From positions 1 to 20,078 of IMG/VR virus record IMGVR_UViG_3300020171_000576: a stretch of 20,078 nt of DNA; one strand, given 5' to 3'. This DNA is from a virus. The position numbers were made by a program, and so were the translations under genes. The notes beneath the pieces are model-generated. The model was given only the letters and a program-made list of their open reading frames with translations. It ran no database searches and was not told the origin of the DNA. Positions 4,569-20,078 of the stretch are shown here, in pieces (the first letter of the stretch is position 1; each line of letters opens with the position of its first letter).

Positions 4569-5323
4569 TAATCTCTCCTTAAATACTCGATGTCGGTCGG
4601 CTGTTCCAGCATTTTAGAGGCAATCTTATAAACCTTTTCAGCCTCATTCCTTGTGATTTTTCCATCCCTTATCGTGATCCCACAGTCTTTTATAAACCCA
4701 GCCTGACAGTCACTTGTCACCCTTATGATAGGTTCGGTCATTCTCCTAACTTCTTCGTGAGCATCTGCTAAACCTTTTTCCCTCTGCGATCTGGTAAAAT
4801 GAGCTTCTCCGATGGATTCACCCAACTCCCCTCTCATTTTAAGGATTGCATCCTGTTCAGACCCCTTTAATTTGGGGGTTTCTTCGTTAATCTTGCTCAA
4901 CCTTTCTTTTCTTTGAGACAACTTCTCCCTGAACTTTGCCTTTGCAGGATAAGGGATTGCCTCTTGATCCAATGCCATTTCGTCCTGTGCAATACCTCTC
5001 TCCAGTTCATCCTTTTGCTGATCGAAATACCAGGCCGGAAACTCTGATGTAATCTTCCCCTTGCTGTCCCGATCCACAGACCCAAAGATTTTCATGTCCC
5101 TTTTGGGAATGATTATTTCAGGGGCAACCGGAGAAGAAACAGTTTTGGAGGAAACTTTAAGTATTGGAAGTTTATCTAATTTCTCTATAATTGGAACCAT
5201 ATTAAAAATATCGTTCTTTTTTGTCTCCCAATACTTTTTCCTTCCCTCTACCATTTTTTTCTTGTGTTCATCACTCAAAACCCTCTTTACCCTTCCATCT
5301 ACACTTCGTCCCTCAACCTGCAT
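4568..5323 (-). CDS. Phage protein with NUMOD3-like N-terminus, 251 aa
   Basis: The ATG at 5323 follows AAAAGGAGG at good spacing. Residues about 13-36 (VLSDEHKKKMVEGRKKYWE) look like a NUMOD3-type DNA-binding repeat, a short module usually attached to homing endonucleases. No nuclease motif follows. The central part holds FPAWYFDQQKDELERGIAQDE and then a highly charged, probably coiled-coil stretch (residues about 110-175). The C-terminus has DCGITIRDGKITRNEAEKVYKIASKM. It lies between the beta-helix gene and the adaptor region, so a structural or assembly role is possible. I do not recognise the whole family. Confidence 0.72.
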   Translation of the reverse strand: MQVEGRSVDGRVKRVLSDEHKKKMVEGRKKYWETKKNDIFNMVPIIEKLDKLPILKVSSKTVSSPVAPEIIIPKRDMKIFGSVDRDSKGKITSEFPAWYFDQQKDELERGIAQDEMALDQEAIPYPAKAKFREKLSQRKERLSKINEETPKLKGSEQDAILKMRGELGESIGEAHFTRSQREKGLADAHEEVRRMTEPIIRVTSDCQAGFIKDCGITIRDGKITRNEAEKVYKIASKMLEQPTDIEYLRRD

Positions 5324-5338
5324 AAATAATACCTCCTT

Positions 5339-5494
5339 TTAGAATTTTTTAGCCTTTGCAATAAACGGCTGTTTCACTGTTTTCTCTGTAAGTTCCAGAA
5401 GGTCTATGATCTCGTTTACCTTCTCTTCAAGCAGTATGATGTGAATTTTTATCTCTGCTCCTCCAGGTTCTTTTAACACTTCAAGTTTTTCCAT
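5339..5494 (-). CDS. Small helical protein, 51 aa
   Basis: A short gene begins with ATG at 5494, with AGGAG 7 nt upstream, and stops at 5339, where the TAA runs into the Shine-Dalgarno of the next gene. The translation begins MEKLEVLKEPGGAEIKIHI and continues as an amphipathic helix with hydrophobic positions every three to four residues (LLEEKVNEIIDLLELTEKTV), then a basic tail ending AKAKKF. It is the first gene after the hairpin at 5512-5540. Function is unknown; a small assembly or chaperone-type protein would fit the helix but is only inference. Confidence 0.7.
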   Translation of the reverse strand: MEKLEVLKEPGGAEIKIHIILLEEKVNEIIDLLELTEKTVKQPFIAKAKKF

Positions 5495-5511
5495 ATATTC
5501 TCTCCTTTAAA

Positions 5512-5540
5512 ATGGGGTGAGATTTAAAATCCCACCCCAT
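5512..5540 (-). terminator. Strong hairpin, probable Rho-independent terminator
   Basis: A near-perfect inverted repeat of 29 nt lies six bases after the stop of the beta-helix gene. The stem is ATGGGGTGGGAT paired with ATCTCACCCCAT, with a single G-T wobble and an AT-rich loop, and it is followed on the minus strand by TTTT. The U-tract is short, so read-through is likely. It may mainly lower expression of the downstream genes or protect the 3' end of the capsid and beta-helix mRNA. The symmetry means it could also act on the plus strand. Confidence 0.7.
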
Positions 5541-5546
5541 AATTTA

Positions 5547-6653
5547 TTATGATGTTGGCTCTACGGCAATACCAGCATTCGCAACATTTGTTACGGGCAT
5601 ATTAACTGAATACATAAGAGAACCAAGAGGATTTTGACCTGCCCTTACTATACGCCATTCAGCATAATTATGTGCCGAACAATCAACTATACCGACCTGA
5701 TGCCACGATAAAGAATTATCATCAAATACAGTAGTCTGATTGGCTGCCGCAGCTGCCATATAGTTTTGGAATGTACATCTAATGAACCAATGTACCCTAT
5801 CCATTGCCTCATCACCGGTAGGAACACCAGTCCCGCTACCTACCCTAACCATCGGAACAGTAATCGTTCCAGCACTTCGAGAAAGAAACAAACAATCTCT
5901 AAACATTCCATTCTGTGGGCCAACACCGGCAGCAGCACCAGAATCCCCCGTGCCACCATAGTGTAAATGACCCTGATACGCTACAGCCCTATCACCACCA
6001 AAGGTATTCTGACCTATGATACATTCCTCAAACATATAATTTGAGGCTCCAGAACCAATATCCAAAGAGCAGTTGCTTATGGTGTTCTGGGCTGTATCCA
6101 TACAACCATGAAAAGTGCAACGGCTAAAATAATTTCCATAAGCCGTATTAGTTGTAATACCACCAACTCTAACGGCACCAAGATTTGTGGCTGCTGCACC
6201 AGAATTAACAAAATCCATACCATAGAAATTGTTCCTATAGCCAGTTACTTTCACAGTCCACGGAACAGCCGCAGTATCACAATAGATAGTAACATTGTGC
6301 ATATCACGACTTGCTATTGTTCCAGCGGCAGTTATAAAATTGTTCGGGCCACCAGTGCCTACATAGTTGATATTGTTCTTGGTAAGATTTGTCTGTGTGG
6401 TTGTCGTATAGAGACCAGGGGTTACAAAGATTGTATCACTCTGACCACTCGTACAAGCATCATGAGCTTCCTGTAATGTTGCAAAGATATGGTCATCGTC
6501 TACTTTTTCTCTTAAATTGTCATACCAAAGATTGGTACTCTCTTTGGCAGCAACTACCCAATAAATATTCCCAATTCCAATACCCCAGTCTATCCCTGGC
6601 ATTACTGGAACACCAAAACTTGAAATTCCATGAGGAAATCGTGATATTGTCAT
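5547..6653 (-). CDS. Right-handed beta-helix virion protein, 368 aa
   Basis: The ATG at 6653 follows AAAAGGAGAAGAAA. The N-terminus contains FGVPVMPGIDWG and a GNIYWVV strand, then HIFATLQEAHDACTSGQSDTIFVTPGLY, the usual entry of pectate-lyase-like right-handed beta-helices (repeated-event set-up, then PG-Y). Later coils include NVTIYC, NNFYGMDFVNSGA, NYFSRCTFHGC, YMFEECIIGQNTF and WFIRCTFQNY, spaced as in parallel helix rungs. There is no signal peptide, unlike the beta-helix proteins further upstream in the operon. It follows the capsid gene apart from the homing endonuclease insert, so it may be a head decoration, head fibre or tailspike protein. I see no catalytic residues that would prove polysaccharide cleavage. 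Confidence 0.75.
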   Translation of the reverse strand: MTISRFPHGISSFGVPVMPGIDWGIGIGNIYWVVAAKESTNLWYDNLREKVDDDHIFATLQEAHDACTSGQSDTIFVTPGLYTTTTQTNLTKNNINYVGTGGPNNFITAAGTIASRDMHNVTIYCDTAAVPWTVKVTGYRNNFYGMDFVNSGAAATNLGAVRVGGITTNTAYGNYFSRCTFHGCMDTAQNTISNCSLDIGSGASNYMFEECIIGQNTFGGDRAVAYQGHLHYGGTGDSGAAAGVGPQNGMFRDCLFLSRSAGTITVPMVRVGSGTGVPTGDEAMDRVHWFIRCTFQNYMAAAAANQTTVFDDNSLSWHQVGIVDCSAHNYAEWRIVRAGQNPLGSLMYSVNMPVTNVANAGIAVEPTS

Positions 6654-6773: not shown

Positions 6774-7250
6774 TTAATTTTCAAATTGTTCAACTTCAGC
6801 CAATCTTTCAAATTTAGGCCGATTTAAAAATTTAACAGCTTCATAATATTTCTGCCTACTTTCCCAATTCTCCTTTGTAACTTTTACTTTTGGCAAACCT
6901 TTTGCCCACTTGGGAAATAATAATTTTTGAAACATAATTGCCAACTCTGCTTGCTTATTTTTAATTCTCAAATATGGCAATATTGTTTCAAGAAATATGG
7001 AAGCCCTAATAGATTCCATTCTTAAATCGGGACAATGTTTCTGTTTAATATGACCATAATTTGGATTTGCTATTCTTCCTCCAAATTTGCTTTGAATAAA
7101 TTTCAAAACATCTAACGTATTTTGGCCAATGGAAATATTAAGTTCATATGATAATTTTCCATTTTTATGATGAGCCATTCTTACAATTACAGACCCTTCT
7201 CCATCGAAAAAGCCTGCAATATAAGATTTCTCTAATTCGGTAATTTCCAT
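6774..7250 (-). CDS. LAGLIDADG homing endonuclease, 158 aa
   Basis: Residues 10-20 read YIAGFFDGEGS, a clear single LAGLIDADG motif, with the acidic residue pair D16/E18 in the active-site loop. The remainder (NISIGQNTLDVLKFIQSKFGG, then basic GHIKQKH, RASIFLETILPYL and KNKQAELAI) follows the alpha-beta-beta-alpha fold of single-motif enzymes, which act as homodimers and cut long DNA sites. The start at 7250 is 3 nt after the stop of the HNH gene, and GGAG lies 9 nt upstream, so the two form one unit. The length fits intact single-motif enzymes. The target site is not visible here. Confidence 0.9.
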   Translation of the reverse strand: MEITELEKSYIAGFFDGEGSVIVRMAHHKNGKLSYELNISIGQNTLDVLKFIQSKFGGRIANPNYGHIKQKHCPDLRMESIRASIFLETILPYLRIKNKQAELAIMFQKLLFPKWAKGLPKVKVTKENWESRQKYYEAVKFLNRPKFERLAEVEQFEN

Positions 7251-7253
7251 CCT

Positions 7254-7910
7254 TCAATTCTCCTTTAAGCTGGAGGTGACTTTCCTCGTCAGAAAGCCAC
7301 CCCCCTTAGGTTTTCGTTTTAAATAAAGTTCTTTGTGATACTCAAGAACCTTATCCCTGTTTCTCTCATAATATTGTTTCTGCCTTGCAATTCTTACCTC
7401 ACGATGTTTCTCGTAATATAACTTATCCGTTTGTCTCTTTGTTTCCTTATTGCGTTCCCTACCCTCCAACACTTTCCTTTTTCTTACTACTTCAGCACAT
7501 TCCAGAGAACAATATTTGGGAAAACCTTTTTTGGGTTTATACATCTTTTTACATTCAGAACAAGGCTTCTCCAATAATCCATATTTTTCTCTTTTGTACT
7601 GAAGCCCATGTTTACTGAGACCAAATTTCCTTTGAACCTCGGTAAGTGTTGGAGATGAACTAATCGCTTCCAGTAACTCTTCAGGAGAGACAGGTTTTCT
7701 TTCTGTCCCCCCATGAAGTTTTGTATGACATGATAAACAAAGAAGGATTTGAAATTTATGGTCAGCCTTATCTCGTAAATGGTGAACCGCAATTTTACGA
7801 TTTTCAAATTGTTCACCACACATTGCACAAACTGGACCAAACCTTTCAAGAAGAATCCTCCTTTTGCCACCATGCCTTGCTTTGTCCTTGTAGTCTTGAT
7901 GTGAAAACAT
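7254..7910 (-). CDS. HNH endonuclease with additional zinc finger, 218 aa
   Basis: The ATG at 7910 follows AAAGGAG with 8 nt spacing. The HNH core spans residues about 25-67: CAMC (28-31), VHH (H43-H44), then CLSCHTKLH with C58, C61, H62 and H66. The Asn usual in the middle of the motif is not evident (DKADHKFQIL). Residues about 75-111 look like a helix-turn-helix or NUMOD-type DNA-binding segment (TLTEVQRKFGLSKHGLQ). A second four-cysteine site (C117, C120, C134, C138) follows, then a long Lys/Arg/Glu helix with repeated YYE. It probably cleaves DNA as a homing endonuclease. It has its own promoter and is followed closely by the LAGLIDADG gene. Confidence 0.87.
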   Translation of the reverse strand: MFSHQDYKDKARHGGKRRILLERFGPVCAMCGEQFENRKIAVHHLRDKADHKFQILLCLSCHTKLHGGTERKPVSPEELLEAISSSPTLTEVQRKFGLSKHGLQYKREKYGLLEKPCSECKKMYKPKKGFPKYCSLECAEVVRKRKVLEGRERNKETKRQTDKLYYEKHREVRIARQKQYYERNRDKVLEYHKELYLKRKPKGGGFLTRKVTSSLKEN

Positions 7911-8964: not shown

Positions 8965-9789
8965 TTATACTCTGAGAACATCAAAGTGAGTCGTTGCGAA
9001 TCTAAATTGCACCGTCTCCTTTAATGCGACCGATAAATCCATTTTGTAAATCATCACACTAAAATTGGTGTTAGCAGCATCCTCTATCGCTGAATCTACA
9101 GCCATCCCAGGGACTCCGTAACCAATATAAACCCCTGAAAATCCCTGTTTAAAAGGAACTCTCACAAACGTATCCCCTACTGCCACGTTATACGGGAATG
9201 CAGTTGTAACTTGAGGAACAGTCGTACTGGTATCCTTCGTTACACGATACAATCCTGCGTTTCTTCCTGAACGGCAATAAATTGTGCATTTATGGGCTAC
9301 AGGAGTAAACTGAGTGGCATTGGTCGTTACACCTACAGAGATCATCCCATCTGCATCCGTACTGGCTGAAACGGTAAGAAGAGTCGGGGCGGTTCCTATT
9401 GCCGCATTCCGAATGTCTCCTTCAATAATCGTCTCAGGGAGTATTTCCGCAAGTTGAATGAGTAGTTGAGGATCACCTTTTACATACATACCTTCCTGAA
9501 ACATCCAATCCCTTGCTAACTGATTGGCAGAACTAACTACGGCAGTGGAATACTGTCCACCTGAGTTTGAAGTCTGAACCCGACTATTAAACCCAACCGC
9601 TATACCTGCCGGAATCTGTTTGTTTGTAGTATCTGCTGCTCCTGCCGGAACAGCTAATGGAACGATTGTGCCAGGAGTAGCCGCTGCATTTGCAGCCAGA
9701 TAACTCTGGAGTTGACCTATATAATAGGTTCCAGTTCCATTACCAGCAACCCAGAAAGTTCTACTTGGCCCTTCGGCAATTCTAAACAT
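8965..9789 (-). CDS. Probable capsid accessory or decoration protein, 274 aa
   Basis: I set the start at ATG 9789 (MFRIAEGPSRTF), because GGAGG lies 8 nt upstream; longer in-frame starts overlap the previous gene and lack a site. The protein is Thr/Ala/Val-rich and beta-strand dominated. The N-terminal half holds GNGTGTYYIGQLQSYL and PAGIAVGFNSRVQTS, the middle a short helix (LLIQLAEILPETIIEGDIR), and residues about 150-225 a small barrel-like segment (CTIYCRSGRNAGLYRV, NVAVGDTFVRVPF). The end reads VQFRFATTHFDVLRV. Its place directly before the major capsid gene suggests a head decoration or accessory role, but I do not recognise the family with certainty. Confidence 0.68.
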   Translation of the reverse strand: MFRIAEGPSRTFWVAGNGTGTYYIGQLQSYLAANAAATPGTIVPLAVPAGAADTTNKQIPAGIAVGFNSRVQTSNSGGQYSTAVVSSANQLARDWMFQEGMYVKGDPQLLIQLAEILPETIIEGDIRNAAIGTAPTLLTVSASTDADGMISVGVTTNATQFTPVAHKCTIYCRSGRNAGLYRVTKDTSTTVPQVTTAFPYNVAVGDTFVRVPFKQGFSGVYIGYGVPGMAVDSAIEDAANTNFSVMIYKMDLSVALKETVQFRFATTHFDVLRV

Positions 9790-9820
9790 ATTCTTTACCT
9801 CCATTTTTAGATTTTTTAAA

Positions 9821-10192
9821 TTATCGCCAATTTTGCGATCCACATAAACTACAGCCCCCGACAATGACAGGATAATTATTATGCCTGTAATCTGTTACAG
9901 GGTTTCCATCAGCGCCGAGTTGTAAAAGGGTGAACATATCATCTACGTGAATATAGGTAGATAATGGATCCCCAGTCATCGCACTACCGTATGAAATATC
10001 GGGGACATCTGACTGAGTAATCCCATCGCCATCACTTAAAGTATTTCTTTCAATATCGTTAATAAAACCACAATGTTTGCACTTAAAGAAACGGTTAGCA
10101 TCCTCAAGATCGCCTGGAACAGGTTTTCCGCTTGGGGTTTTGCGTAACTTTGTGGTTCTGTAACGACCATATCTGTTTGAGTTAACGCTCAT
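9821..10192 (-). CDS. Zinc-ribbon head-region protein, 123 aa
   Basis: The start overlaps the stop of the scaffold-like gene by 4 nt (ATGA), indicating translational coupling. The N-terminus is basic (SNRYGRYRTTKLRKTPSGK). CKHCGF (C38, C41) and CSLCGSQNW (C114, C117) form two knuckles of a probable zinc ribbon, with a long 72-residue acidic loop between them. Such small zinc-ribbon proteins occur between scaffold and capsid genes in phage head operons. The role is unknown; a minor head or assembly protein is a reasonable guess. Confidence 0.78.
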   Translation of the reverse strand: MSVNSNRYGRYRTTKLRKTPSGKPVPGDLEDANRFFKCKHCGFINDIERNTLSDGDGITQSDVPDISYGSAMTGDPLSTYIHVDDMFTLLQLGADGNPVTDYRHNNYPVIVGGCSLCGSQNWR

Positions 10193-10962
10193 TTTTGGCC
10201 CATAGCTTTTCTTTGGCTTTCTTCAGACATTCCCGTTGACCTAACAAAAGACTCAGCAAGTGGGTCAAGTTTAAGTTCTTTTCCCTTTGAAGCTATATCC
10301 CTCGATTCAATACTTAAATCTGTTGAAGCAGTATCCTTCCCACCCTTCACATTTGGTTTCGGGCCTGAAGCACTTATCTTCTTAGCAAGAACAGCAGATT
10401 TAGCCTTGGTGTAATTAAGGTCTGCGTCAAGAGAGGGGTCATTACTCCTTCTCACATTGAAATTTGCCATCATTTCCTTAAATATCTCTTGGTGAAAGGT
10501 TGGATTATCCCTTTCAAAATTCCTTAATGTCCTAATGTAATTCTGTTCGTATTGCCCTTGATCTCTTGTCCTCTCCTGTTCTTCTTTTATCCTATCCGCC
10601 CTGGCTATCCTACGAACATCAGCCGCCGTTGCGATAACTTCATCCGCATCTTCGGAAGGACTCTCGTCTCTCGGTGGACGGTCAAAACGGGAAATAACCT
10701 CATCAAATTTTTGGCTAAGGTTTTCTCTTTCTAATTTATCCCTATCCAATCTTTCCTCAAGCCTCTTAAGGTGTCTTCCAAGCCTTGTTCGTTCTTCCTG
10801 ATCGGAAGGTAATTCTTTCCTTACCTCTGGTTCTACCTTTACTTCCAGTTCTGGTTCTATTACCGTTTCTGGTTGTTCTAAAGCGGATTCCAAGGCTTCA
10901 TCGGTTACTTTGTCTGTAACGGTTTCCTTGGTTTCGGGGCTTTCCTTGATTTCCTCTACCAT
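10189..10962 (-). CDS. Scaffold-like acidic coiled-coil protein, 257 aa
   Basis: The ATG at 10962 follows AGGAGG. Residues 1-50 are very rich in Glu, Pro and Val (ETVIEPELEVKVEPEVR). Residues about 50-95 form a charged coiled coil (RLGRHLKRLEERLDRDKLERENL), and a further helix-rich block runs to about 180 (DVRRIARADRIKEEQERTR and NFERDNPTFHQEIFKEMMANF). The tail is basic then polar (SASGPKPNVKGGKDTAST). No serine protease motif is seen. The composition and position between portal and capsid match phage scaffolding proteins, which guide procapsid assembly and then leave. The assignment is by architecture and position. Confidence 0.72.
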   Translation of the reverse strand: MVEEIKESPETKETVTDKVTDEALESALEQPETVIEPELEVKVEPEVRKELPSDQEERTRLGRHLKRLEERLDRDKLERENLSQKFDEVISRFDRPPRDESPSEDADEVIATAADVRRIARADRIKEEQERTRDQGQYEQNYIRTLRNFERDNPTFHQEIFKEMMANFNVRRSNDPSLDADLNYTKAKSAVLAKKISASGPKPNVKGGKDTASTDLSIESRDIASKGKELKLDPLAESFVRSTGMSEESQRKAMGQK

Positions 10963-13263: not shown

Positions 13264-14871
13264 CTACCATCTCGGCTGCATGTAATTCTCGATCCCTGAA
13301 CGTCTCTGATTAGGCAATACATTCCTGAATCTACCCACCCTAAAAGCATCATTTTTGAAAATACATTCTATCGTAACAGGAAAGTGTGAATATTTATCTT
13401 GAGCCTTGTTTTTCTCTTCCTTTGTGATTAAGGATTCCCTGCTCGCCCATTGCTCCTGTCTCCAGTTCCTGAAACCATAATTCGTATGAACACAATTATC
13501 AAGAACCCAAAGGGTCGGCAGATAAGATTCCACCCCATCCTTAACAACTCTGTTATTGAAAGGTTTCCCTATCTTTCTTGAATTTTGTAATCTTTCCTTA
13601 ACAATGTCTCTTCCCCTTAGATTCTTGGTATCCCACGTCTGCCAGTATCCCCCACTACCTAACCCCTCTTTTTTAAAGTCGTGGAAGGCACGGTTTATAT
13701 CATCAAGGCACGTTTGACCAGTATTAACCTGTGTCTTTGCAGCCCAGGGGTCGACAAGATTTAACGGATAATGGTAGTCCTGACTCCTGACTGCGATCTC
13801 TCTTGCTATCTCCCTCGTTACCATTCTGCCAGGAGAGGGGTTATACTCTTCCCAGATAAAAGCCTCATTATCGGGAGAAAGGGCAACCCAACTACACGCC
13901 CAATTTGTAAATTCGTGAAAATCAATCCCCCTTGCATTCAGATAGGTATGAGGCATCCCTTCTGGAAAATATTTATTCCTGCTTATAAAATGAATCCCAG
14001 GGTCATATTCTTTATAGATGACACCTGATATTTGATGAAAAATACCGTATCTTCTGATCTCTTTCGTTACATCATCCAACCCTGAATATTTTTCCTCTAT
14101 GACGTTAATATCGAGGGTCGGGTTATCGTCTGAAGCAGCCCTAATTACTGCTATATTGGTATTTCTATCCATGACTTCTTTAACTTTATGAGTGATGCCG
14201 TCTCTCTTTTTAAGATATTTAATAATTGTAGGGGAATTGTAAATCTCACTTGCTCTCTCAAATATAAATTCATAGGTCCACGTCAACGATTCCGTTGGGG
14301 TCATCCCCAAAATTATATCGCCGTTTGATGCAAGAAGTCGAGGGACTTGTTCCTCATAAAAACTCAATGGTGATTCTTCATCTAAATAAATACTCCATCT
14401 CTGATGTCCTGCCTGACTCTGGACTTCTTGATTATAAGAAACAAATTCAACAACAATATCGCTTCCAAATTGTCTGTCTCTTATCGTAATCGCCGGTCTA
14501 CGTGCCGTAATGTCTTTCTTAATCAGATAAGAAGGAAAGAATTTTTTAAACTGTGGATATTGTGTATTTCTAATTTCACCACCGGCCTCTGATTCAGTCG
14601 GTAATGTTTGGGAGGCAAATCTAAGTACCCTAATCGGAGTGTTAGGTCTCATATTTTTTTCTTCTATGGGATGAAGACCCAAGATTCTATCAATATAATC
14701 TCTCTCAATATTGGCGTTTTTCCCTTGTTGATTTCCAGTAAAAACACCTATTACTTTCTTATCGCACTGAGATAATGCCCACTTAACAAAATTGGGTTTA
14801 AGGGAGAAATAACCTGCCCATTCATTATAGGTCTGAATATCCTCTTCTGGAATTTCATTAAATACTTCCAT
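13264..14871 (-). CDS. terL: Terminase large subunit, 535 aa
   Basis: This is the packaging ATPase-nuclease. With ATG 14871 as start, the Walker A region is TGNQQGKN at about 45-52, where the usual Ser/Thr after Lys is Asn. Walker B is IYLDEE (about 161-166), and the coupling motif is GMTPTESLTWTYEF near 189-202. The nuclease domain shows GIDFHEFTNW (D317) and LVDPWAAKT (D374), fitting an RNase H-like fold. The start is uncertain: the ATG has AGGAG only 1 nt away, and an in-frame GTG at 14883 (overlapping the previous stop by 7 nt) could be used instead. It lies directly before the portal gene, as usual. No small terminase is visible here. Confidence 0.92.
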   Translation of the reverse strand: MEVFNEIPEEDIQTYNEWAGYFSLKPNFVKWALSQCDKKVIGVFTGNQQGKNANIERDYIDRILGLHPIEEKNMRPNTPIRVLRFASQTLPTESEAGGEIRNTQYPQFKKFFPSYLIKKDITARRPAITIRDRQFGSDIVVEFVSYNQEVQSQAGHQRWSIYLDEESPLSFYEEQVPRLLASNGDIILGMTPTESLTWTYEFIFERASEIYNSPTIIKYLKKRDGITHKVKEVMDRNTNIAVIRAASDDNPTLDINVIEEKYSGLDDVTKEIRRYGIFHQISGVIYKEYDPGIHFISRNKYFPEGMPHTYLNARGIDFHEFTNWACSWVALSPDNEAFIWEEYNPSPGRMVTREIAREIAVRSQDYHYPLNLVDPWAAKTQVNTGQTCLDDINRAFHDFKKEGLGSGGYWQTWDTKNLRGRDIVKERLQNSRKIGKPFNNRVVKDGVESYLPTLWVLDNCVHTNYGFRNWRQEQWASRESLITKEEKNKAQDKYSHFPVTIECIFKNDAFRVGRFRNVLPNQRRSGIENYMQPRW

Positions 14872-14876
14872 TCTCC

Positions 14877-16706
14877 TCACCACGTTATCGAATGACTCCC
14901 TCCACCAATTGTGATGGATTGAGAGCCTGCTCCGATGGCTAAAGTATTAAACCCTTTAAGTGAAAAAGATATAGGATAAGATTCTGTATTTGGACTTGCC
15001 CCTACTGTGCATCTGACATATCTATTATAACTGTTTAAACAACTCAAAGAAGATAGGGTTGTCGAGTGATAAGTCCCCCCTGTGGTGGAAAAGGTGTTGG
15101 GCATATCAGCATACGCTTGATCTGTTATGCTCCATTTGCAGGTTGCAGCTTGATCAGTATTGATCGACATAAGGACATCTCTTGGATTGGAAGTGCAAAC
15201 TAAAGGGTTGGATGGGTGTCCAGCAAATATAACAGAAGGAGGAGTTATCCCCTCACCTCTCAACGGATGGGGATAGTTGTAAGGGGTGTAATAAGGAGTC
15301 CAAGTATTTGTTGCCGTGCATTTATAAAGAGTGCCTTGAAGGTAAGTATTTATCCCATCCGTTCTTTGAGTGGAATCCCCGACAAGACCTGTTAAATCAG
15401 AACAGGATTGATTTGTTGCCCAATATCCTACTCCAGTTGTGCAGGTGGCAGGACGGGAGGCAAGAGTACCACAACCTATACCTACCGTCCCATTAAAGGC
15501 TGCGGAATCTTGATACCATTCATCATTCTCATTGATCGAGTAACCATGTGTTATGTCTGAGCAAATTGGCGCAGAATCACCTATACTATCAGAACAAACA
15601 TTTTGAGATAAGTAGCTTGTCACTAAGTTACTATTATAGTTTTTACGGTTATTCCAATAATAAGAATCTGATACATGCTGTGGCTGTGTATTAGTTGTCG
15701 GATTGTATCCATCCCATACTTCTTCCCTAACTTTTACAGCATTTATGGTCCCAGTTGCCCCAATAACTGTATTGTGATGAAGAACAACCTTTCCTCCACG
15801 TTGGTCAAGGATTTGCCCTTTAATCATGTTTATTTTATTCCCATATATTTCACCACCAAACATGGAATACATATAGGTTGCACCTTGATTACCATGCATA
15901 TCCATAAACGGGTATGACCCACCGGATGTAGTTATTGTATTATAACGTAATGCGACACGATTGGCATATTGGCTGTAAAATAGTTCGCCAGTCAAGTTTT
16001 GAAAAATATTATCTTCAACATATATATTATTATCTGCTTTCCCGTAAACTATACCTTCCCAATTATCCCACCATGTTTCACCATTGCTATAAGAATTGAA
16101 AAAACCAAGGGGCCAACTGACGAAACCGTCAAAAATATTATTATCAATCACACCCCTCATGCCACTGATTCTAACTCCTATTGCTCCAGTTCCACCATTT
16201 AAAAATTTATTATGGTCAATTCTTATTTTTGTTTGGATTGTCAAATCAGAACTATGATGAGTTACACGAATTGCACCTTTTGTCGTACTATTAATGTTAA
16301 ATGTAATACCAGTAATACGAAAAGGATTATTAAGTGTGAAGTCAGAGGGAATATACTGAAAAGCCCATGCGTTCGCACCTTGTGTAACTATGGTATTAGT
16401 GATACCAGCACCCTGAATTGTTATACCCTTCGTGATATGGATATTTGCGTTAAGGTTTTGCTGAGTTGTATATGTTGTCCACGTTGCACTTCCAGCAGGG
16501 ATGTTGATGGTATCTCCAGCACTCGCCACTGTATTAATGCAATAATTTACATCTACCTGGGCAACACTGGGATTCCCACCCGCTCCATCCAACACATTCC
16601 ATGGAGAGGAGCCAGATGAACCACCATTCCAGCAGGTTCCAGCAAGAAGGGAAACAGGAGATACTAATAGAAAAATAAGTACTGTTAAAGGAGTTAAAAT
16701 ACCCAT
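14877..16706 (-). CDS. Secreted-type right-handed beta-helix protein, 609 aa
   Basis: The ATG at 16706 follows GGAGGAGGAG and overlaps the previous gene by 13 nt. The N-terminus is a Sec signal peptide (hydrophobic LTVLIFLLVSPVSLLA, cleavage likely after Ala22). Next come SAGDTINIPAGSATW and GITIQGAGITNT, which open a parallel beta-helix with rungs such as FRITGITFN, IRIDHNKF, GVIDNNIFDGF, IYVEDNIFQN, VALRYNTI and VVLHHNTVIG (about 60-330). A Cys-rich segment then ends near YTPYNYPHPLRG, and a C-terminal Ig or fibronectin-like domain (TDQAATCKWS, YVRCTV, YPISFSLKG) follows. These modules are typical of bacterial secreted proteins. It could be a polysaccharide-binding or depolymerising fibre; no catalytic residues are certain. 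Confidence 0.78.
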   Translation of the reverse strand: MGILTPLTVLIFLLVSPVSLLAGTCWNGGSSGSSPWNVLDGAGGNPSVAQVDVNYCINTVASAGDTINIPAGSATWTTYTTQQNLNANIHITKGITIQGAGITNTIVTQGANAWAFQYIPSDFTLNNPFRITGITFNINSTTKGAIRVTHHSSDLTIQTKIRIDHNKFLNGGTGAIGVRISGMRGVIDNNIFDGFVSWPLGFFNSYSNGETWWDNWEGIVYGKADNNIYVEDNIFQNLTGELFYSQYANRVALRYNTITTSGGSYPFMDMHGNQGATYMYSMFGGEIYGNKINMIKGQILDQRGGKVVLHHNTVIGATGTINAVKVREEVWDGYNPTTNTQPQHVSDSYYWNNRKNYNSNLVTSYLSQNVCSDSIGDSAPICSDITHGYSINENDEWYQDSAAFNGTVGIGCGTLASRPATCTTGVGYWATNQSCSDLTGLVGDSTQRTDGINTYLQGTLYKCTATNTWTPYYTPYNYPHPLRGEGITPPSVIFAGHPSNPLVCTSNPRDVLMSINTDQAATCKWSITDQAYADMPNTFSTTGGTYHSTTLSSLSCLNSYNRYVRCTVGASPNTESYPISFSLKGFNTLAIGAGSQSITIGGGSHSITW

Positions 16707-17626
16707 GCTCCTCCTCCACCTGCTGCTAAAGTGCCAGCATCATAAGCCCCTGTTGAGTTATTAAGTACCGATGTTCCAACTCCAACAACCGCAGCCGCAG
16801 GAGCTTTTCCTACATAAAGAGTTCCTATTTTCCAGTAGTCATTTGCAGCAGCATTCCAGGTAAAAGAACCTCCCATTGCAGATGCTTGCGTTGAATTTAC
16901 CAATTTAACACCAGCGGAAACAACTACCGCAGCAGCCGAACCTGATTGATTAAAAACACCAGTTGCAGTACTCCAGCTTCCTCCTGTAATTGTTCCACTA
17001 TTTATTGTTATTATGCTGGTTGAACTTCCTGCATTACTCACACCATATGCCACTCCGGAACCACCACCAGTAATATTTCCGTTAATGGTAGCCAATGCTC
17101 CAGCAACACCAATCCTAAGTCCAACACCTGTACTTCCACTACTTCCGATTAAATTGGCATTTACGATTGCCTTCGCTCCACCACCAATGATATGATGAAT
17201 TCCATTTTTACTACTTGTGGCTACAGAAGCAGTTATTGAAGTTCCATTGAAAGTTACATCGTTGGTAGTAGCAGTAGTTATTATCTGAAATAAATGTTCC
17301 GTCCCTGCCGCTGCTGTTGTAAAATTAATTTGGCAGGTTCCGGAAGTAAGACAGGCGGCATTACTAATGTCCATCGTAATTGTACCAGTCGTCGCAGCCG
17401 TAATTGTTCCCAATGATCCAGTTGCTGGTATGCGTTGGATGGTCGCAACATCCCATACTACAATATATGAAGCTAAGGCTACATCCTCACCTTCCGTTGG
17501 TACATGACCCAAATCCCAAACGGTAGTATCAGACCAATTTCCAGCCTTAGTAGCCGTATTGATTACGGCGTAAGAAGTCCCCGCCCATACCAGCACTGTC
17601 AATATCGAAAGAAGAAATTTTTTCAT
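16694..17626 (-). CDS. Signal-peptide beta-helix-like protein, 310 aa
   Basis: I chose the ATG at 17626 because GGAGG lies 6 nt upstream and the product then begins with a textbook signal peptide (MKKFLLSILTVLVWAGTSYA, cleavage after Ala20). A longer open frame runs upstream but overlaps the previous gene. The mature part starts with GNWSDTTVWDLGHVPTEGED, the entry motif of G8-like or polymorphic beta-helix proteins. It continues as low-complexity Gly/Ala/Thr/Ser strands (VNANLIGSSG, INGNITGGGS, INSGTITGG), then NDYWKIGTLYVG and a Gly-rich end. It is probably an extracellular or virion-surface beta-solenoid. The last four codons contain the next gene's start. Confidence 0.74.
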   Translation of the reverse strand: MKKFLLSILTVLVWAGTSYAVINTATKAGNWSDTTVWDLGHVPTEGEDVALASYIVVWDVATIQRIPATGSLGTITAATTGTITMDISNAACLTSGTCQINFTTAAAGTEHLFQIITTATTNDVTFNGTSITASVATSSKNGIHHIIGGGAKAIVNANLIGSSGSTGVGLRIGVAGALATINGNITGGGSGVAYGVSNAGSSTSIITINSGTITGGSWSTATGVFNQSGSAAAVVVSAGVKLVNSTQASAMGGSFTWNAAANDYWKIGTLYVGKAPAAAVVGVGTSVLNNSTGAYDAGTLAAGGGGAWVF

Positions 17627-17642
17627 TATAATCCTCCTTAAT

Positions 17643-18485
17643 CTAATCCGTGACCCATACGCCTTCAGACACACCGCACATCCATGACCAAGCGGCTGCA
17701 CCTGTCTTAAAGGTAAAACAGGACATTCTATCTCCTGCAACTGGAGATGTGTTGCTGACATAAGTCTTCCCAGAAACTAATCCTGCTCCGACATTTGCAT
17801 AGATATTGGCCGATCCACTTGTGAATCTCCAGTAATTTGCTCCCTGAGTTGTTCCGCATATAGCAATAAAGGTCATCCCTGCTACCGCCGTAGGAAGCGT
17901 CAGGTTAATATCCGCCGCTGCTTGTCCATAGTTATTTATAATTGTTCTTGAAACTTGTGCGGCAGATAGAGCAAAGGCAGTAGAGCCATCTATTTCTGGG
18001 GCTGTGATGGCTGGAGTAATAAGAGTTGAAGAAGTCTGTCTAACCGTTAACCCTGTTCCAGTGGGTTGAACTGATACAAGTTCACCACTTGCATTACTCT
18101 CAACCCCATAGGAAGCCGTGAAGCCACCGAGGGTTATGCCAGTAAGAGATGATTTAAACTCCAAGGCCGTGTTACCTGCATTGCTCCCAAGAAGTCTATT
18201 TGCTCCCCCACTTGTGACAACTGCTGAACCACCTACTCCCGTTAATTCTATGATAGAGACGTCAGCAAAGGTGAGGGCGTTAATGGAACTAAGATTAACC
18301 CAAATTTGCAAAAGATTGCCGATCTGGACTTTTCTATCCCCTGGGACTCCTACAGGATCATTGATAACATAAATAATATCATCAGTAGTAGGTGTGGTAT
18401 CTTCTGTCATATCCAGAATACCAGCAGGCCAAGCATTGGATGAAAGTAACAGAAACATCATCAAGGCAAGTATTAACTTTTTCAT
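17643..18485 (-). CDS. Signal-peptide fibre-like protein, 280 aa
   Basis: The ATG at 18485 follows GGGAG at 8 nt. Residues 1-21 form a Sec signal peptide (MKKLILALMMFLLLSSNAWPA). The following segment (TPTTDDIIYVINDPVGVPGD) is the N-terminal pattern of phage tail fibre proteins. The middle is a Ser/Thr/Gly repeat region of short strands (SIIELTGVGG, LEFKSSLTGITLGGF). The C-terminal domain (about 170-280) contains INNYGQAAADINLTLPTAV, GTTQGANYWRF and a final WSWMCGVSEGVWVTD, a beta-sandwich common at the ends of phage fibres. A fibre with a secretion signal is unusual. It starts 4 nt after the stop of a 48-aa mini-gene. Confidence 0.76.
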   Translation of the reverse strand: MKKLILALMMFLLLSSNAWPAGILDMTEDTTPTTDDIIYVINDPVGVPGDRKVQIGNLLQIWVNLSSINALTFADVSIIELTGVGGSAVVTSGGANRLLGSNAGNTALEFKSSLTGITLGGFTASYGVESNASGELVSVQPTGTGLTVRQTSSTLITPAITAPEIDGSTAFALSAAQVSRTIINNYGQAAADINLTLPTAVAGMTFIAICGTTQGANYWRFTSGSANIYANVGAGLVSGKTYVSNTSPVAGDRMSCFTFKTGAAAWSWMCGVSEGVWVTD

Positions 18486-18645: not shown

Positions 18646-19242
18646 CTAAAAGTAAACCGTTATCTGAACAATTGAAACCGAAGCAGCCGTATAGTCGATA
18701 CATTTAAAGGCCCGGATCGAGTTGGCATCCTGAATCATAACCGAACTATTCGCTACCAGCGGTTGCCCTATCAAAGAAGTCTGATCTGGCGTGCTTCCGT
18801 TCCAAATGCAAAGGGCTGTGTTGGCATAGACAGAAACAAGTATCGCCTTTGCTAACATTCCTTTGTAGGCGTAATCGTCTGTAACGGGAACCTGTGTCGC
18901 TCCTGTGCGAACAGTAAGATGATCGAGATTTGCGCCATACCCAATATTTTCAGTGGAAGCGAAAGTCCCGCTGACTGATTTTAGTCTTAACGTCACTCTC
19001 GCATTGACGTTCCCGTATGCTCCGGCAGTAAGGGTTGCGCTGATAATAACCGCCCTTGCCCCACTGGTTTGCCCTACGATCCACCCTCCAGCAACAGGTT
19101 CGGTACTACCCGCATCTACACCATCGCATAGAAGGGTGAATTCAAGATATTCACGGCAACTTGCCGCAAGTCCCGTGGCGGTATTTCCTGGCACAATCTT
19201 CTGGTGGTTCAGAGCCATTCCGACATAATCATAGATATACAT
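18646..19242 (-). CDS. Hypothetical virion-type beta protein, 198 aa
   Basis: The ATG at 19242 follows AAAAGGAGG. The protein lacks a signal peptide and is beta-strand rich: EYLEFTLLCDGVDAG, GGWIVGQTSGARAVIISATL, NVNARVTLRLKSVSG, LDHLTVRTGATQVPV, then GMLAKAILVSVYANTALCIWNG and a final VSIVQITVYF. The composition resembles phage tail or fibre components. It ends just before the 48-aa gene and follows the repeat-rich protein, so it probably belongs to the fibre module. I do not recognise the family. Confidence 0.7.
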   Translation of the reverse strand: MYIYDYVGMALNHQKIVPGNTATGLAASCREYLEFTLLCDGVDAGSTEPVAGGWIVGQTSGARAVIISATLTAGAYGNVNARVTLRLKSVSGTFASTENIGYGANLDHLTVRTGATQVPVTDDYAYKGMLAKAILVSVYANTALCIWNGSTPDQTSLIGQPLVANSSVMIQDANSIRAFKCIDYTAASVSIVQITVYF

Positions 19243-19248
19243 TTTTTA

Positions 19249-20078
19249 CTACCTCCTTTTCCCAAAATTAGGCCATGTTGGTATTCCTGAAAACCATTTA
19301 TGTTTTTCTTCCTCTCCTCCACCACTTATAAATTTAGTTACAATATCAACCACTCCAGTGGCAGTAATGCTAATTAATTCAATAAAATGTGCAAACGCAG
19401 AAGCAGTAACTAAACCAATAGATGTTCCTACACTATTAACAAGAAAAGTGGCATTATTAGAAGCAGATACTATTCCGGTTGAAGTAAGTGAAAAGATTTT
19501 ATTTACTTGTTTTAATGCTGCCGGAATACCGGTTGCTGTTAAACCAAAAATCTTATTAATTTGACGACTACCTCCAGCTACTCCAAGAGATGTAATAGAG
19601 ATAATTTTATTAATCTGGAGAGTTCTCTCGACAATTCCAAGAGCAGTAAGGGCTGCATTAACAACATAAAACAGAGAAGCAGAAGCAGCAACTAAACCAG
19701 TTGCAGTTAAGGCTATGGTACTGAGAAGCATACTTCTGGTTGTAGCTACAAGTCCTGTTGCAATAGCATCTCCAGTAGCATAGAAAGTTGTAGCAGTATA
19801 TTCCTTAATTGCTAAAGCAGAATGGCAAACATCATCTGAAGCAGCGGTATAGCCAATGGTTGTAGAACCACCACCCGCCACGGATTTTCTTGCCCACATT
19901 GCCGAGTCAGCGCCATAGTCTTTGCCTGCTACATGGGTGCTACCTGTTTGGACGGTCGTAACGGGAGCGGCAAGGCCTGAAGCGATACCGTAGAAAATCT
20001 CGGCTGCAACAGTTGGGACAATTGTAAGTGATGGGTTAGCAATAATCCCCTCATCTGCTCCCGCACTTGTATCAACTG
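19249..20078 (-). CDS. Partial CDS, repeat-rich structural protein (C-terminal 275 residues)
   Basis: The frame is open to the right edge, so the start is missing; internal ATGs such as that at 19899 are not credible starts because coding continues without a break upstream. The visible N-terminal part (GLAAPVTTVQTGSTHVAGKD, then SVAGGGSTTIGYTA and ALAIKEYTA) looks like the last strands of a beta-sandwich of the kind found in phage structural proteins. It is followed by eight 18-20-residue repeats with a TATG(I/L/V) core and a hydrophobic strand, three sharing INKI-like ends. The C-terminus is charged and aromatic (GGGEEEKHKW, IPTWPNFGKRR). The gene is probably part of the fibre or tail block. 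Confidence 0.75.
   Translation of the reverse strand, partial: VDTSAGADEGIIANPSLTIVPTVAAEIFYGIASGLAAPVTTVQTGSTHVAGKDYGADSAMWARKSVAGGGSTTIGYTAASDDVCHSALAIKEYTATTFYATGDAIATGLVATTRSMLLSTIALTATGLVAASASLFYVVNAALTALGIVERTLQINKIISITSLGVAGGSRQINKIFGLTATGIPAALKQVNKIFSLTSTGIVSASNNATFLVNSVGTSIGLVTASAFAHFIELISITATGVVDIVTKFISGGGEEEKHKWFSGIPTWPNFGKRR
19327..19782 (-). repeat. Eight tandem 18-20-residue protein repeats (TATG core)
   Basis: Within the right-edge gene, the glycines of the TATG-like core fall at intervals of 19, 20, 18, 18, 18, 20 and 20 residues. The cores read IATGLV, TATGLV, TALGIV, TSLGVA, TATGIP, TSTGIV, TSIGLV and TATGVV. Three central units share an INKI or VNKI ending and have an exact 54-nt period. 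The pattern suggests a beta-solenoid or repeated strand-turn fold rather than membrane helices, because the hydrophobic runs are short and broken by Gly and Ser. Confidence 0.7.

Follow-up and report, generated by a model that had tools for sequence, protein, structure and literature searches.

Why would a tailed phage place signal peptides on fibre-type proteins? The question is raised by three consecutive genes, here called P1, P2 and P3, in a 20,078-base stretch of DNA (the window), which is the complete IMG/VR record IMGVR_UViG_3300020171_000576, a fragment of an uncultured tailed phage with nearly all genes on the minus strand. The usual assumption is that virion proteins do not leave the cytoplasm; the phage proteins known to be exported are mostly small lipoproteins or lysis enzymes. 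The computational analysis described here provides good support for predicted export of P1-P3, and there is about an even chance that the three form an exported cassette acting on the host envelope by polysaccharide cutting or modification and receptor occupation, as a multi-gene analogue of Llp of phage T5. This reading is based on the signals, their starts, their recurrence and exchange, cysteine covariation, the fold of P3 and its bacterial kinship; from these we infer actual export, enzyme activity, receptor occupation and benefit.

P1 (17643..18485, minus strand, 280 residues) comprises a signal peptide (codons 1-21; 18423..18485), a fibre-type N-terminal domain and a C-terminal domain. 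P2 (16694..17626, minus strand, 310 residues) has a signal peptide (codons 1-20; 17567..17626) followed by the fibre/beta-structure motif GNWSDTTVW, and P3 (14877..16706, minus strand, 609 residues), whose first 13 nucleotides are also the last 13 of P2, has one in codons 1-22 (16641..16706). The predicted signals and mature starts are MKKLILALMMFLLLSSNAWPA and GILDM for P1, MKKFLLSILTVLVWAGTSYA and VINTA for P2, and MGILTPLTVLIFLLVSPVSLLA and GTCWN for P3, each called from a rule-based score together with a Shine-Dalgarno sequence. The score was not SignalP; it followed our own rules on n-region charge, a charge-free hydrophobic 9-mer and an A-X-A-type site. It was positive for P1, P2 and P3 and for none of the 15 other window genes at the first scoring, and for none of 16 other genes when alternative starts were allowed. 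The sequence-only reading had reported three consecutive signal-peptide genes, and their coordinates, their adjacency on the minus strand and their restriction to these three genes were confirmed. Its description of the signals, with a basic residue or short n-region and A-type sites (WPA, SYA, LLA), was correct for the sites and failed on the basic residue of P3, whose n-region has no Lys or Arg; P3 homologues start MKK or MRR. All sites in P1-P3 are A-type, with no lipobox after the signal. Shine-Dalgarno sequences precede the signal-bearing ATGs (GGAG for P1, 4 bases; AGGAGG for P2, 6 bases; GGAGGAGG for P3, 6 bases), and none of at least 4 bases was found at any other in-frame start of P1-P3 up to codon 60. 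Wrong start calls were considered as the source of the signals and rejected, because Shine-Dalgarno sequences occur only at the signal-bearing starts.

The same arrangement recurs in other records. The P3 family was found in 21 viral and 9 bacterial loci, viral loci L016 and L042 being the two ends of one record. P3 is signal-positive in 15 of 19 scorable viral loci, the gene before it in 13 of 19 and the second gene before it in 8 of 19, against a background of 5/89 (5.6%) for genes more than four places from P3. The P3 misses at L049 and L040 came from start-calling errors or a hydrophobic segment just past the called start, and their re-reading gave two more signals; in L016 an additional signal gene had been missed (MKKFIYAIAFLLVASTAWA), bringing the run there to five consecutive signal genes. 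Runs of at least three signal genes were observed in 9 loci versus 2.6 expected when signal flags were shuffled within loci (p ~2e-4); L044, L045 and L049 are closely related, so the records are not fully independent and the p values are overstated, but records with very unlike sets of genes show the pattern. The search for the same trio in related phage contigs, proposed from the sequence alone, recovered all of it in the 58 kb record L017, where P1-P2-P3 stand in the same order and are all signal-positive. L017 has no detectable match to the window terminase, which was matched in 0/16 P3-bearing viral records, and P3 was found in 0/7 terminase relatives, these being fragments in which absence is weak evidence. 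Even so, the cassette clearly moves between phages. In L018 an exported esterase-like gene (9719-10654; Abhydrolase_2 / PHB esterase) lies within the P3 cassette.

P1 and P2 are homologous to proteins in the fibre position of other phages. The P1 N-terminal domain, spanning TEDTTPTTDDIIYVINDPVG...RKV, is present in signal-less proteins of L019, L002 and L075 and in a signal-bearing protein of L021, the last a P1 relative that matches phrog_24210 tail fiber protein; in the signal-less relatives it is probably a virion anchor. The C-terminal domain ends SWMCGVSEGVW, and a full-span relative with a signal is encoded at L017 6184-7074 (44% over the C-terminal part). A P2 relative with a signal lies at L017 7084-8013. 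Searches of P1-P3 against Pfam and PHROGs gave nothing above the cut-offs, and tblastn of P1-P3 against 50,697 GenBank phage records gave no match, so that no cultured relative with proteomics was available. The AlphaFold model of P1 (mean predicted local distance difference test score, pLDDT, 38.9) was unusable. In records of other phages, L026 (6691-11647) and L036 (6717-11604), 3-4 tandem GNWSDTTVW paralogues were found, all of them signal-less.

The signals of P1 and P2 are added modules, because the first residues of signal-less homologues coincide exactly with the N-terminus predicted for the mature proteins. Signal-less P1-type proteins start MADTKVIDLTADATPTSDDLIYV and MPDTKLIDLTEDTAPASDSLVYT, aligned to mature P1, with L075 as a third case, and in many viral records P2-type proteins without a signal open with M-ANVYAVKSGNWSDTTVWNTG or M-ANVYAVKSGNWSDTTVWN, aligning from P2 residue 21, the mature N-terminus. 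Homologues starting past the hydrophobic segment had been named in advance as counter-evidence to the signals; such starts were found for distant P2 homologues in which the similarity is confined to the first 25-70 residues, and neither for the full-length L017 relatives nor for P3. Recombination swaps signals while some signal is retained: the P1 proteins of L044 and L045 are 93% identical in the mature part and 37% in the signal, and between L017 and L049 the signal differs little at synonymous sites (pS of 0.06 versus 0.64 in the rest of the protein) although the mature part has diverged. One C-terminal fibre-type domain goes together with a type I signal in L050 and L016, with the lipoprotein box LAGC in L018 and with no signal in L019, and the protein at L018 6493 is the only P1-like relative with a clear lipobox.

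Two alternatives bear directly on these observations. P1-P3 may be true fibres that pass through Sec, form periplasmic disulphides, lose the signal and join virions when lysis mixes periplasm and particles, in which case signal cleavage would restore the exact N-terminus used by signal-less fibre homologues. That the signal-less P1 and P2 homologues begin at the predicted mature N-terminus agrees with such a route, as do the fibre position of the cassette, a site that holds signal-less fibre-like or LamG genes in terminase relatives, and the retention of the P1 N-terminal domain at 50% identity to L019. The lipoprotein version in L018 would, however, be membrane-held, the kin of P3 are bacterial secreted proteins with no virion role, and no tailed phage is known to us in which exported fibres have been shown to be loaded; we regard this route as unlikely, with a real minority chance of being correct. 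The wider proposition is similarly doubtful: some tailed phages would make fibres by way of the host Sec pathway, and these fibres, once exported, would undergo oxidation and cleavage in the periplasm and would not be attached to virions until lysis, which would put part of virion maturation outside the cytoplasm. Alternatively, the signals may be relics that came in with the captured gene, or hydrophobic tips that stay uncleaved and act on membranes, on proteins that remain in the cytoplasm and are built into virions as usual. A bacterial origin of P3 would carry a signal along, and L047 and L054 are among the few P3 relatives without a recognisable signal. We consider this quite improbable: P1 and P2 gained their signals and did not inherit them, the exchanged signals stay functional-looking whereas relics would decay, and the cysteine pairs of P3 covary.

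The cysteine evidence is independent of the signal score. Counted past the signal, the cysteine content of cassette proteins is 1.85 per 100 residues versus 1.02 in other genes (p 1e-6), and the raised content holds for the non-P3 cassette members alone (p 6e-4); neither P1 nor P2 is itself rich in Cys. P3 residues C412 and C435 co-occur, both being present in 6 and both absent in 14 of 20 rows (Fisher p 2.6e-5, uncorrected for phylogeny), and columns 245 and 282 likewise covary without exception (4 and 16 of 20 rows); C422 is invariant and C463 is found in 19 of 20 rows. Such covariation is as expected for disulphides that would form outside the cytoplasm. Signal recurrence, signal swapping and covarying cysteines together support the earlier suggestion of export by the host during infection.

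P3 consists of a right-handed beta-helix (residues ~30-360), a conserved Cys domain (409-483; motifs GCGTLASRPATCTTGVGYWATNQSC...YKCTATNTW...YPHPLRG) and an Ig/fn3-like C-terminal tail. AlphaFold predicted the right-handed beta-helix with many blocks of pLDDT >85, leaving the last 120 residues unpredicted; the helix region directly follows the signal, with no N-terminal virion-anchor domain between. Foldseek matched the model to a Geobacillus virus tailspike, AlgE4 epimerase, PL6 lyases, alginate epimerase/lyase, RbmB and Klebsiella phage depolymerases, matches that indicate a fold class and not homology. Residues W76, E231, R254, N256, H271, E286, Y288, N290 and Y349 are invariant across phage and bacterial rows, and the E, R, H, E and Y residues among them suggest a shared site, with a putative lyase or epimerase activity. 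No Pfam or NCBIfam family covers the P3 family. Its nearest relative in the tree is a secreted KSB1 bacterial protein (L057) encoded among polysaccharide-synthesis genes, sister at 100/99 and 41% identical over residues 53-483. Phage and bacterial rows are intermixed, and the well-supported branches require three or more switches. Homology to the KSB1/Acidobacteriota exopolysaccharide (EPS)-cluster family spans the helix and Cys domain, and the Sec signal is held in common. The bacterial members adjoin genes for Wzy/O-antigen ligase, polysaccharide flippase, glycosyltransferase and UDP-GlcNAc 2-epimerase. Bacterial P3 homologues were considered as prophage genes, and this was rejected for those inspected, whose neighbours are polysaccharide genes. 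The KSB1 and Acidobacteriota kin are mere hints to the phage host. The earlier idea that surface modules of bacteria were recruited and kept their signal thus fits P3, with KSB1 nearest and phage and bacterial rows mixed, and does not fit P1 and P2, where a signal has been added to phage fibre-type proteins.

The fold class and EPS-cluster kin of P3 would also suit a free soluble depolymerase with companions, that is, exported or released enzymes for biofilm spread with no exclusion role. Phage-encoded soluble capsule enzymes are on record (phiNIT1, as cited in PMC6966330), and it has been argued that depolymerases released by phages hinder adsorption by removing capsule, or that they aid progeny spread (PMC6966330). 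This explanation leaves the fibre-type P1 and P2 with added signals unaccounted for, and we give it a small chance. As a separate observation, the last 23 residues of P3 (NTLAIGAGSQSITIGGGSHSITW; window 14880-14948) are 83% identical to L019 6483-6551, where the carrier is a signal-bearing protein (5217-6554) otherwise unlike P3. A scan for this candidate C-terminal sorting tag, GxGSQSITIGGGSxSITW, gave no third carrier beyond P3 and L019 5217-6554.

P1, P2 and P3 lie adjacent on the minus strand directly upstream of the large terminase gene (13264..14883, minus strand), which follows P3 directly and has terminase relatives and a weak match to annotated terminases. The terminase places the cassette within the structural gene block; the window gene content includes terminase, portal, a Mu gpT-like major head protein (Pfam E 4e-10) and their neighbours. 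Upstream of the cassette is a conserved signal-less gene (18646..19242, minus strand), relatives of which in L002 and L004 precede different cargo; this gene and the terminase bracket a site with content varying among relatives, and the cassette occupies it beside fibre-like genes (18646-20076). Membership of P1-P3 in a lysis module, as spanin-like or holin-associated exported proteins, is suggested by L017 and L050, where genes for a small membrane protein and for an endolysin (GH108; M15-like, below Pfam's cutoff) come after the cassette. It is very improbable: P1-P3 have no lysis-family match at a trustworthy score, their sizes and beta-structure are unfit for spanins, and in the window terminase follows the cassette, not lysis genes.

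Elsewhere in the window, two putative homing endonuclease genes lie in tandem (6774-7250 and 7254-7910) directly downstream of the major head protein, one LAGLIDADG_1 (Pfam E 8e-7) and one HNH/NinG-like, and relatives of both occur in the terminase-related L003 and L009. Terminases of related phages are 864-910 residues long (L002 6064-8718, L003 1408-4002, L011 6639-9371) and carry insertions of ~350 residues that are absent from the window terminase; these are probably inteins, because a LAGLIDADG domain lies inside them in L002 and L003. Also downstream of the head protein is a signal-less protein (5547-6653) with the conserved start MTISRFPHGISSFGVPVMPG and 9 Cys in 368 residues; relatives stand at the same place in L002 and L011, the latter with two copies.

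In the favoured reading, an exported envelope-acting cassette, P1-P3 would be expressed late, exported by the Sec pathway of the infected host and cleaved by signal peptidase I, and so act in or beyond the periplasm. P3 would be a beta-helix protein acquired from bacterial exopolysaccharide clusters that cuts or modifies the host's own surface polysaccharide, and P1 and P2 would be fibre-type proteins given signals that occupy or mask receptors. By stripping or blocking the surface late in infection the trio would reduce superinfection and re-adsorption of progeny to debris and ease spread through the matrix; it is this exclusion or remodelling role, already raised by the sequence-only reading, that we infer for the cassette. 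Several points weigh against it. The signals were called by our own rules and not by SignalP, the runs of signal genes may partly reflect nearby lysis genes in some records, and the template-modelling scores for the P3 fold are low (0.2-0.4), with no known catalytic site mapped. In diderms, a type I signal by itself takes a protein no further than the periplasm. The P1 N-terminal domain is still conserved, which is needless for an envelope-only role, and related phages fill the site between the 18646 gene and the terminase with signal-less fibre-like or LamG genes; this kept domain and the ordinary fibre genes in the same site are the strongest objection, and favour periplasm-matured fibres. 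A recurrent late exported cassette, if real, would mean that many environmental phages go further in remodelling or blocking the host surface than the coliphage examples show, with a cassette common to uncultured phages that otherwise differ and exchanged with exopolysaccharide clusters of hosts; under the alternative, fibres could mature outside the cytoplasm. Either outcome would be a reason not to label all genes of this type as virion fibres.

Envelope proteins that phages export are already known; a cassette of several genes for exported proteins of fibre and beta-helix type, with signals that can be exchanged, is undescribed in the literature searched, and no paper on signal peptides in tail-fibre cassettes was found in the searched open-access literature. 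Lom and Bor of phage Lambda are exported envelope proteins (an outer-membrane barrel and a lipoprotein) expressed in lysogens, with lom located by tail genes. Exported endolysins (fOg44 Lys44, SAR endolysins) are likewise phage proteins on the host Sec pathway (PMC6116005), but they are peptidoglycan enzymes of the lysis module and not fibre-type. P3 resembles phage tailspike depolymerases in its predicted right-handed beta-helix (model and fold search) and its phage setting; tailspikes, however, are cytoplasmically assembled virion parts, signal-less and with an N-terminal anchor, whereas P3 and its kin have Sec signals, cysteine pairs and bacterial EPS-cluster relatives. With EPS-cluster lyases and epimerases (PL6, AlgE/AlgG-type, RbmB) P3 shares the signal, the right-handed beta-helix and the EPS neighbourhood of its bacterial members, but its sequence family stands outside Pfam/NCBIfam and its activity is putative. 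Further parallels are T5 Llp and T1 Cor, with which P1-P3 gave no sequence match. Llp, whose gene comes directly downstream of that for the receptor-binding protein, is exported and blocks the receptor from the periplasmic side (PMC9586334). The shared plan would be a phage-encoded, exported, envelope-acting protein; a gene by the receptor-binding protein gene and an intramolecular disulphide are described for Llp and Cor (PMC9586334), to be compared with the position of the cassette beside fibre-like genes and with the covarying cysteine pairs of P3. The lipobox cysteine of Llp and Cor is absent from P1-P3 and among P1-like relatives is present only at L018 6493; and where Llp and Cor are small single lipoproteins, the cassette described here would supply three or more exported proteins that are larger, carry type I signals and have fibre or beta-helix domains.

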